Assembly (NCBI RefSeq): GCF_009671205.1
Contig: NZ_CP045309.1
Coordinates: forward strand, 3,658,001-3,722,000
Length of the DNA stretch: 64,000 nt
Reading direction: 5' to 3'
Source: Micromonospora terminaliae
GTDB lineage: Bacteria; Actinomycetota; Actinomycetes; Mycobacteriales; Micromonosporaceae
The position numbers were made by a program, and so were the translations under genes. Below the pieces are notes generated by a model that worked only from the letters and a program-made list of their open reading frames with translations, did no database searches and was not told where the DNA came from. Below are positions 47,868 through 52,226 of this stretch, one piece after another. The first letter of the stretch is position 1. Each line of letters opens with the position of its first letter.

Positions 47868-50708
<2,841 letters not shown>

Positions 50709-50760
50709 GGCGTCTCCTCGGCGCAGGTATGTCGGATATCGGAGGTCTGCTGCGGGCATG

Positions 50761-50785
50761 AAAAAGCCCCTCGCGCAGGAGGGGC
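50761..50785 (-). terminator. leuS attenuator: intrinsic terminator
   Basis: Minus strand: GCCCCTC (50785-50779), loop CTGCGC, GAGGGGC (50772-50766), then TTTTT (50765-50761). A stem with a T-tract is unusual for this GC-rich DNA and lies 53 bases before leuS, inside its leader. Confidence 0.85.
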
Positions 50786-50787
50786 CG

Positions 50788-50820
50788 CCGTGCTGTCGCG
50801 CTCTCAGCGCATCAGCACGG
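50788..50820 (-). promoter_or_regulatory. leuS attenuator: pause hairpin
   Basis: CCGTGCTG (50820-50813, end of the leader peptide) pairs perfectly with CAGCACGG (50795-50788); inside it GCGCT/AGCGC forms a second stem with loop GAG. An alternative pairing, GCGCTGAG (50810-50803) with CTCCTGCGC (50781-50773), would break the terminator and is a candidate antiterminator. Confidence 0.7.
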
Positions 50821-50850
50821 CTCGGTAAGAAGCAGGAAGACTCCGGCCAT
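50812..50850 (-). CDS. leuS leader peptide (12 residues, three Leu codons)
   Basis: ATG at 50850, TGA at 50814-50812; the product is [12 protein letters not shown]. The codons at residues 6-8 are CTG, CTT and CTT; CTT is rare in such GC-rich genomes. TACACT (50863-50858) lies seven bases before the ATG, so translation would begin at the very 5' end of the mRNA. Stalling at the Leu codons when charged tRNA-Leu is scarce would mask CCGTGCTG and favour readthrough into leuS. This follows the classical trp/leu attenuation logic; it has not been tested here. Confidence 0.82.
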
Positions 50851-50857
50851 GACCGGC

Positions 50858-50863
50858 AGTGTA
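50858..50863 (-). promoter_or_regulatory. -10 element of the leuS leader transcript
   Basis: TACACT on the minus strand, seven bases before the leader-peptide ATG. No strong -35. Confidence 0.6.
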
Positions 50864-51133
50864 CCCCGTCGGCGGCTCGCGCCGGTCGCCCGCCGCCCGC
50901 AACGTGGGACGGCGTCGGCCGCTTCCGGCCGCCTCGGCACGGAAACCGGGACCCGGCTACCCGCCCGCGCGGCGGCCACACGTCCCCCGGTCCGGCGAAT
51001 ATTCCGGGCGTAACCGGCCGACCGGCTGCGGGGGTCGGCGACAACGAGAAACATGGTTAGCCTGAGAGGCCAGTGAGATTTTTGCGGCAGACGAGGCTCG
51101 GCGTCGCGAACCCAACGGCGGGTCCAGGTGCTC

Positions 51134-51170: not shown

Positions 51171-52226
51171 GTGACACAACAGACCTGGGACGAGGTGGGC
51201 GGTCTGCTGCCGCACGACGAGTTCCGCGCCGCCAGCGAGGCCATCGTGGCCAACATCGAGCAGGTCATCGAGGGCAAGACGGCCACCGTCCGGCTCGCCC
51301 TGGCGGTGCTGCTCGCCGAGGGCCACCTGCTGATCGAGGACGTGCCCGGCGTCGGCAAGACGAAGCTGGCCAAGGCCATGGCCCGGTCGATCGACTGCTC
51401 GGTGCGCCGGATCCAGTTCACCCCCGACCTGCTGCCCAGCGACGTCACCGGGGTCAGCGTCTACAACCAGGAGACGCACGACTTCGAGTTCCGGCCGGGC
51501 GCAGTCTTCGCCAACCTGGTGGTCGGCGACGAGATCAACCGGGCCTCGCCGAAGACCCAGTCGGCGCTGCTGGAGTGCATGGAGGAGCGGCAGGTCACCG
51601 TCGACGGCGTGACCTACCAGCTGCAGACCCCGTTCATGGTGATCGCGACACAGAACCCGATCGAGATGGAGGGGACCTACCCGCTGCCGGAGGCGCAGCG
51701 CGACCGGTTCACCGCCCGGATCGCCATGGGCTACCCGGACCCGGGCGCCGAGCTGGCCATGCTGGACGGCCACGGCGCCACCGACCCGCTGGACGGGCTG
51801 CGGCCGGTCTCCGACGCGGCCACCGTCCGCCGGCTGATCGGCCACGTCCGGCAGGTCCACGTCGCCGACGCCGTCAAGCAGTACGCGATCGACCTGGTCA
51901 CCGCCACCCGCGAGGCACCCGACCTGCGGCTCGGCGCGTCCCCGCGGGCCACCCTCCAGCTGCTGCGCACGGCCCGTGCGGTGGCCGCCCTGGAGGGCCG
52001 CGACTACGTGCTGCCGGACGACCTCCAGGCCCTCGCGGTGCCGGTGCTGGCGCACCGGATCATCCCGACCGCCGACGCGCAGCTGGCCCGGCGCACCACC
52101 GACGCGATCGTCGCCGAGCTGGTGCACCGCCTCCCGCTCCCGCACGACCGCAAGCGCTCCCCCTACGACACCCGGCCCCCGGCCCCCAACAACGGGCGCG
52201 GGCCGTACGAGCCGCGGAGGCCGTGA
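51171..52226 (+). CDS. MoxR-family AAA+ ATPase
   Basis: 351 residues from GTG 51171 (GAGGAGGAGG upstream). Walker A in EDVPGVGKTKLAKAMA (~56-71), Walker B NLVVGDEINRASPKTQSALLEC, sensor 1 PFMVIATQNPIEMEGTYPLPEAQRDRF (shown in family order), and a C-terminal lid with ASPRATLQLLRTARA. MoxR proteins act as chaperone-like ATPases with VWA/DUF58 partners. Its stop is two bases before the DUF58 gene, and a transglutaminase follows: a widespread three-gene module of unknown client. Confidence 0.93.
   Translation: MTQQTWDEVGGLLPHDEFRAASEAIVANIEQVIEGKTATVRLALAVLLAEGHLLIEDVPGVGKTKLAKAMARSIDCSVRRIQFTPDLLPSDVTGVSVYNQETHDFEFRPGAVFANLVVGDEINRASPKTQSALLECMEERQVTVDGVTYQLQTPFMVIATQNPIEMEGTYPLPEAQRDRFTARIAMGYPDPGAELAMLDGHGATDPLDGLRPVSDAATVRRLIGHVRQVHVADAVKQYAIDLVTATREAPDLRLGASPRATLQLLRTARAVAALEGRDYVLPDDLQALAVPVLAHRIIPTADAQLARRTTDAIVAELVHRLPLPHDRKRSPYDTRPPAPNNGRGPYEPRRP

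Follow-up and report, generated by a model that had tools for sequence, protein, structure and literature searches.

Classical attenuators ahead of leuS were predicted in Streptomyces avermitilis and Streptomyces coelicolor in 2005, together with a LEU element before leuA (PMC1262725). In Streptomyces lividans TK24, the leader leuL2, which encodes the peptide MRAVRLLLSEPR before leuS and is followed by a hairpin and a U-stretch, was reported in 2021, on RNA-seq data, to be leaderless (PMC8079986). Among other leaders, that of ilvB1 in Mycobacterium tuberculosis, which is described as attenuated, is the source of an abundant RNA some 120 nt long (PMC13236596). Codon substitutions in the ilvB leader of S. 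coelicolor left regulation unaffected (PMC1262725), therefore actinobacterial leaders need not work in the classical manner.

Here we analysed a stretch of 64,000 nucleotides from Micromonospora terminaliae (contig NZ_CP045309.1, positions 3,658,001 to 3,722,000), referred to as the window, in which leuS is preceded by a short leucine-rich frame. The first-pass annotation of this stretch had proposed a leucine attenuator and regarded it as unfamiliar for an actinomycete synthetase gene, a view at odds with the two Streptomyces predictions of 2005 (PMC1262725). The features, in order of transcription, are as follows.

50858..50863, minus strand: −10 box TACACT, 7 nt ahead of the leader ATG, without a −35 match (from sequence).
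50812..50850, minus strand: leader peptide frame, ATG to TGA, 12 codons (from sequence).
50827..50835, minus strand: leucine control codons CTG-CTT-CTT, codons 6-8 (from sequence).
50827..50829, minus strand: last Leu codon CTT, 5 nt ahead of hairpin 1, rare and nearly invariant.
50787..50821, minus strand: hairpin 1 (the 1:2 hairpin), −25.9 kcal/mol, with the leader stop codon within it.
50765..50786, minus strand: intrinsic terminator hairpin, 8 bp, −15.1 kcal/mol, adjoining hairpin 1.
50761..50765, minus strand: terminator T-tract, five T (from sequence).
47868..50708, minus strand: leuS, leucine--tRNA ligase, 946 aa (TIGR00396, 870.7 bits against a cut-off of 548.4).

Most of what had been annotated was recovered on re-examination, i.e., the TACACT box (50863-50858) with an ATG 7 nt on at 50850, the 12-codon peptide with CTG-CTT-CTT (50850-50812), the terminator with its T-tract before leuS (50786-50761), and leuS itself, which scores above the TIGR00396 cut-off. 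The general picture also holds, with a leucine leader peptide sitting where a leaderless transcript would start and a 1:2-type hairpin and an intrinsic terminator following before leuS. The pause hairpin does begin inside the peptide as proposed, and only its size needed correction, from 8+5 bp to a slightly longer 9+6 bp. It spans 35 nt, its stem having 9 bp and 6 bp separated by a 1x1 internal loop and closed by a GAG loop.

The leader lies directly upstream of leuS, with 103 nt from its stop codon and 52 nt from the end of the terminator to the leuS ATG. The fold of the 93-nt leader beats all 200 dinucleotide shuffles (0/200; z −3.98). When both strands of the window were scanned for the complete anatomy (TAnnnT, 6-7 nt, ATG or GTG, a frame of 7-26 codons with LL, and a terminator) exactly one match was obtained, the leuS leader, and there were none in 40 shuffled windows. 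No two-hexamer promoter was found at the leader by a sigma-70 scan. Likewise, no second copy of the leader was found in the genome by model R1, built from 100 leaders, with the next matches at E 0.24, which is the antisense of the leuS leader's own hairpin, and E 2.4. The closest named relatives of the LeuS N-terminus are from Micromonospora species, at 97% identity or less. Divergent from leuS lies a frame (51171-52226, plus strand) which resembles a MoxR-type ATPase; its NCBIfam matches of AAA-ATPase type are all sub-threshold.

Very likely, the leuS leader attenuates transcription by a ribosome-mediated mechanism, through which leuS responds to charged leucyl-tRNA. RNA polymerase would start at or beside the ATG at 50850, and the ribosome would load on the 5' AUG without a Shine-Dalgarno sequence. 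The spacing of 6-7 nt between the −10 box and the ATG of family leaders fits leaderless transcription, and the leader frame probably starts at or beside the first transcribed base. With ample charged tRNA-Leu, the ribosome would read CUG-CUU-CUU, reach the UGA inside hairpin 1 and leave; hairpin 1 and then the terminator could form, and a leader RNA of about 90 nt would be released. With charged tRNA-Leu scarce, the ribosome would stall at the Leu codons. Going by the size of the ribosome footprint, a ribosome with the last CUU in its A site should have its leading edge over about the first five bases of hairpin 1. Hairpin 1 would then be weakened, and its freed 3' arm could compete for the loop and 5' arm of the terminator, allowing read-through into leuS. 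The peptide frame, the Leu run, the −10 spacing and both hairpins are borne out by sequence comparison; the exact start, the stalling and, above all, the antiterminating pairing are what we infer.

The alignment of relatives that had been suggested as a check favours the attenuator, given that the leader is conserved in 247 of 249 loci of the family (Micromonosporaceae) and that both hairpins covary. A leader was counted as a frame with a Leu run and a nearby TAnnnT box, and a run of LL or longer was present in 247/249 family loci, LL being itself a criterion of the family search, which the common position and sequence were not. These loci comprise 167 of the 169 family genomes read and all 80 of the Micromonospora, Verrucosispora and Salinispora loci, two sets that partly overlap. 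The family search gave 147 leuS matches, all of which were read (three of the 150 genomes had no leuS match), while the genus genomes read were L007-L058, from 101. The 247 family leaders represent 186 distinct sequences, and the peptide is 12 aa long in 207 of them all (207/247). In every one (247/247) the TAnnnT box stands 6 or 7 nt ahead of the leader start, where the finder required 4-9 nt and tried 6 and 7 first.

Two family genomes are without the leuS leader frame (L165 in G129 and L211 in G152); L165 keeps a terminator-like stretch, a G-run and then a T-tract.

Beyond the family, a class-wide sample gave 139 places, of which three were of the window's own genus and already counted; 93 of the remaining 136 were read. 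The leader was present in 54 of these 93 further loci, 11 of the 54 lacking four consecutive T within the searched stretch. It was found in all loci read of f17 (32/32), f18 (9/9) and f10 (2/2). A leader of the leuS type was not found in the loci read of f2 (0/18), f16 (0/8) or f13 (0/4). The group f2 belongs to the same order as the window's genome, yet its leuS has no detected leader. In f24, three leuS leaders with Leu codons (L278, L339 and L341) have CTC in place of the last CTT and no four-T run downstream, and perhaps have a different output.

In a phylum sample of 296 genomes, searched at E 0.01 with filters under which weak matches drop out, model R1 matched 29. All matches with E < 1e-9 precede leuS, and this holds down to a LeuS identity of only about 40%. 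Weak matches in distant Actinobacteria, all of them read except L379, had other genes downstream, namely leuA-like (L372, L378 and L381), leuC-like (L376) and ilvB-like (L374), names that come from reading the translations and not from a family search. The Leu frames at these five loci end in CTTA, some with a terminator; L373, L375, L377 and L380 were left without interpretation.

The stems themselves vary in a coordinated way. Alignment A2 holds 100 of 119 representatives. The other 19, which carried long insertions or unusual terminators or nearly duplicated other f17 rows, were dropped by hand, and the pair counts of A2 may look better for it. Across both hairpins 97.0% of cells are paired, against 40-55% in slid controls, and 7 of 15 hairpin pairs have changed on both sides, where shuffles average 2.5. 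In hairpin 1, 96.3% of cells are paired and five of the nine pairs have changes on both sides; in the terminator 98.0% are paired over six pairs, two of which have changed on both sides. One variable pair of hairpin 1 is T-A in 72, C-G in 24 and T-G in 4 of the 100 sequences. Of the 82 family rows, 72 have T-A, 6 C-G and 4 T-G at this position; the 18 outgroup rows all have C-G. The signal of a mutual-information scan peaked at the hairpin 1 pair 65-132, and some was found at terminator pairs.

Because the hand removal of rows may flatter the A2 counts, hairpin 1 was rechecked in all 186 distinct family leaders free of any alignment, while the terminator counts rest on A2. The 7-base 5' arm of hairpin 1 is fully complemented downstream in 185 of the 186, and the arm complement was found in all 41 distinct outgroup leaders with a T-tract. 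Folded without constraint, 182 of the 186 leaders formed hairpin 1 and 176 formed the terminator. The peptide's conserved end (EPC or EPR) was considered as an arrest peptide and rejected, since 32 of the 247 leaders stop ahead of it. In these 32 leaders the frame is closed early by a TAG that overlaps hairpin 1 by one base, its G being the first of the hairpin, so that the residues EPC are not made, and the stem sequence is kept. This indicates that the conserved peptide end is an RNA stem read as codons.

Two pairings that could act as an antiterminator were examined.

50773..50810, minus strand: antiterminator of the first-pass annotation, GCGCTGAG (50810-50803) with CTCCTGCGC (50781-50773); not supported by comparison.
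50772..50793, minus strand: possible 2:3 antiterminator, the 3' arm of hairpin 1 with the terminator loop, −4.7 kcal/mol, weak.

The pairing of GCGCTGAG with CTCCTGCGC can be drawn in the window (−6.4 kcal/mol), and a fold of this kind appears there once bases 1-37 are kept from pairing while the terminator still lacks its 3' arm. As a conserved feature it was rejected: it falls in a variable loop and shows no covariation, only 63.3% of cells are paired, a percentage that 26 of 500 shuffles reach, and it lies within or near the shuffles on all measures. It is the sole item of those listed by the first-pass annotation that comparison leaves unsupported. The 2:3 pairing joins GCRCGG in the 3' arm of hairpin 1 to CUGYGY in the terminator loop. 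On A2 86.6% of its cells are paired, with no covariation detected, and the pair 132-151 is broken in 49 of the 100 sequences. Its mean energy is −7.9 kcal/mol in f17 leaders and −5.1 in the family, with the terminator at about −11. When terminator loops were permuted, the mean rank of the 2:3 pairing was 0.42 (72 combinations) or 0.44 (35 distinct arm/loop pairs), where chance gives 0.5; a rank this near chance gives no sign of selection on the pairing. By these energies it would be the natural antiterminator in the f17 leaders, which we judge from the leader peptide to be Streptomyces-like. No run of adjacent pairs fitting an antiterminator was found in the mutual-information scan. With the start of hairpin 1 blocked, as by a stalled ribosome, the minimum-energy fold still has the terminator in 185 of the 186 distinct leaders. 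Such folds ignore the order of synthesis, therefore the missing support for an antiterminator is no disproof, and we infer an antitermination that would be exclusive with the terminator.

These results also speak for a constitutive terminator, with which the frame would be translated, leucine supply would alter read-through little, and the leader would set a low basal level of leuS. The antiterminator is unsupported, the terminator survives the simulated ribosome block, and of the two family genomes without the leader frame one keeps a G-run and T-tract like those of the terminator. Even so we consider this account improbable, as a Leu run beside hairpin 1 (247/249) and a fixed Leu codon (245/247) are hard to explain without leucine decoding. 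In a further account the Leu codon run, when untranslated, would itself base-pair with GAGGGG in the terminator's 3' arm, and regulation would depend on the exposure of the codon run. Over six columns CTYCTT and GAGGGG are indeed paired in 96% of cells, and in the leuA LEU element the Leu codons have been proposed to pair with the Shine-Dalgarno box (PMC1262725). We rejected this pairing as a candidate and find such regulation very unlikely: where the arm became CTGGGG or CAGGGG, in the sub-lineage g11, the last codon stayed CTT, so the change went uncompensated; CTC, a better pairing partner than CTT, hardly ever stands as the last codon; and the terminator's own 5' arm is always nearer.

There is hardly any likelihood that a T-box or other riboswitch controls leuS and that the small frame is incidental. 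T-boxes do control most synthetase genes in Firmicutes (PMC1262725). However, no Rfam family reached threshold in the window, a permissive scan of 50600-51000 gave neither a T-box nor another riboswitch, and the conserved part consists of the frame and the two hairpins. A ribosome-mediated attenuator remains the reading that we prefer, and the leuS leader is a real, conserved and probably functional leucine attenuator matching the published one.

The last Leu codon of the leader is nearly invariant. Located by its constant spacing from a GCCG anchor, it is CTT in 245 of the 247 family leaders (184 of the 186 distinct ones), the exceptions being L204, with CTC, and L198, which reads TTA owing to an extra base and has CTT one base farther. 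The codon before it is CTT in 85, CTC in 77, CTG in 4 and out of frame in 1 of the 167 family genomes with a leader. In outgroup leaders the last codon is CTT in 50 of 53, a count biased upwards by a bonus for CTTA frames in the finder; one of the 54 outgroup leaders had no GCCG anchor, and the family finder and the reading of leuA-type leaders carried no such bonus. CTT is otherwise rare, making up 17 of the 1689 Leu codons (1.0%) in the 37 CDS-like frames of the window, and leuS codes for Leu by CTG throughout (66/66).

The same codon was found in leaders of leuA type, which were located by the LEU hairpin with the codon left unnamed. Sixty loci were read from the pattern matches, and 51 of these had a leader run of Leu, Ile, Val or Met; among the other nine, eight had no such upstream frame and L461 gave no readable match. 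The last Leu codon is CTT in 50 of the 51, a set that includes many close relatives and three Ile-Leu rather than Leu runs, and in which most loci are named by the hairpin alone. The one exception is L420. The last CTT sits 4 nt ahead of the hairpin, with an Ile codon after it in three. CTT is followed by A, G or C, therefore the constraint lies on the codon and not on a longer motif. The window's own genome has such a leader as well, with a −10-like TAGGGT 9 nt ahead of its ATG.

L387:1251-1295: leuA leader of the same genome, MWRAFLLLGCRDEA, with CTT-CTT-CTT and the LEU element hairpin, 250 nt upstream of a TIGR00970 match.

Among the Leu codons of six Streptomyces genomes, CTT alone lacks a tRNA gene of its own; the GAG tRNA, which reads CTC, serves it as well (PMC4932002). 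For the present genome, no tRNA-Leu gene was found among the 26 tRNA loci scanned, of 30, and a D-arm pattern for tRNA-Leu gave one place, outside the tRNA matches. Since one tRNA should read both CUU and the common CUC, a lock on CUU would act through slow wobble decoding and not through a special isoacceptor. We propose, tentatively, that actinobacterial Leu leaders share one sensor with a synonymous-codon lock. Under this lock the last Leu codon must be CUU, for which Streptomyces has no Watson-Crick tRNA, at 4-5 nt from the switch hairpin, whether the leader finishes with a terminator, as before leuS, or has none, as before leuA; to us this is slightly more likely to fail than to hold.

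The attenuator is not new in kind, and the features first thought unusual are already in print. Its nearest counterpart is S. lividans leuL2, with which it shares the place upstream of leuS, a 12-aa peptide, LLL at codons 6-8, a hairpin and a T- or U-stretch (PMC8079986). All 32 f17 loci carry the leader, 22 with exactly the leuL2 peptide and 10 with one residue changed, and the leuS leader can be aligned with them in A2 over LLL, hairpin 1 and a CCCCTCCTGYGYGAGGGG-type terminator. It differs from the Streptomyces leuL2 type in a shorter hairpin 1, in the start of the peptide and in the stem arms, GCCGTGC/GCACGGC here against GCCGCGC/GCGCGGC there. The LEU element of leuA (S. lividans leuL1) has likewise a Leu-run frame ending in CTT and a GCCGCG.. 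hairpin 4 nt on. However, its leader is described as having no typical intrinsic terminator (S. lividans leuL1, PMC8079986), its output is proposed to differ, by a pseudoknot and Shine-Dalgarno pairing (PMC1262725), and only part of the leuA-type leaders have a TAnnnT box 4-9 nt before the start. The leuS leader is not itself a LEU element: its stem differs from the GCCGCGACGAG hairpin, it has a terminator, and leuA of the same genome has a LEU leader separately.

Mycobacterial leaderless poly-cysteine frames were reportedly found by Canestrari in 2020 to be amino-acid-responsive. They differ in the amino acid, cysteine, and in that no conserved terminator was seen, according to the account in PMC1262725.

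The enteric leu attenuator, like the leuS leader, has hairpins and a terminator. In the enteric leader, however, translation starts from a Shine-Dalgarno site, there are four Leu codons and the antiterminator is defined, and what it controls is biosynthesis and not a synthetase. Both leaders draw their Leu control codons from those rare in the genome, CUA in the enteric case (PMC1183508). The explanation for CUA lies in the isoacceptor, and a CUU lock would differ from it by acting via wobble decoding. The selective-charging account explains the choice of isoacceptor (PMC1183508) and should not alone separate CUU from CUC if one tRNA reads both.

Apart from the papers cited here, full-text searches of a collection thin on subscription journals gave no title or abstract opening that deals with this family or with a fixed CTT; the main text of PMC1262725, figures aside, has no CUU, CTT, rare codon or Micromonospora, and that of PMC8079986 no CUU, CTT or rare codon. 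What this analysis adds is, in part, an extension of the Streptomyces attenuator, predicted and supported by RNA-seq, to a whole family with evidence from covariation. The terminated leuS leader and the leuA LEU element would carry the same kind of sensor, and the locked CTT common to these two leader families is the part for which we found no description. With a nearly invariant CTT, the question of why attenuators favour given synonymous codons becomes testable, cheaply and by single-base changes.
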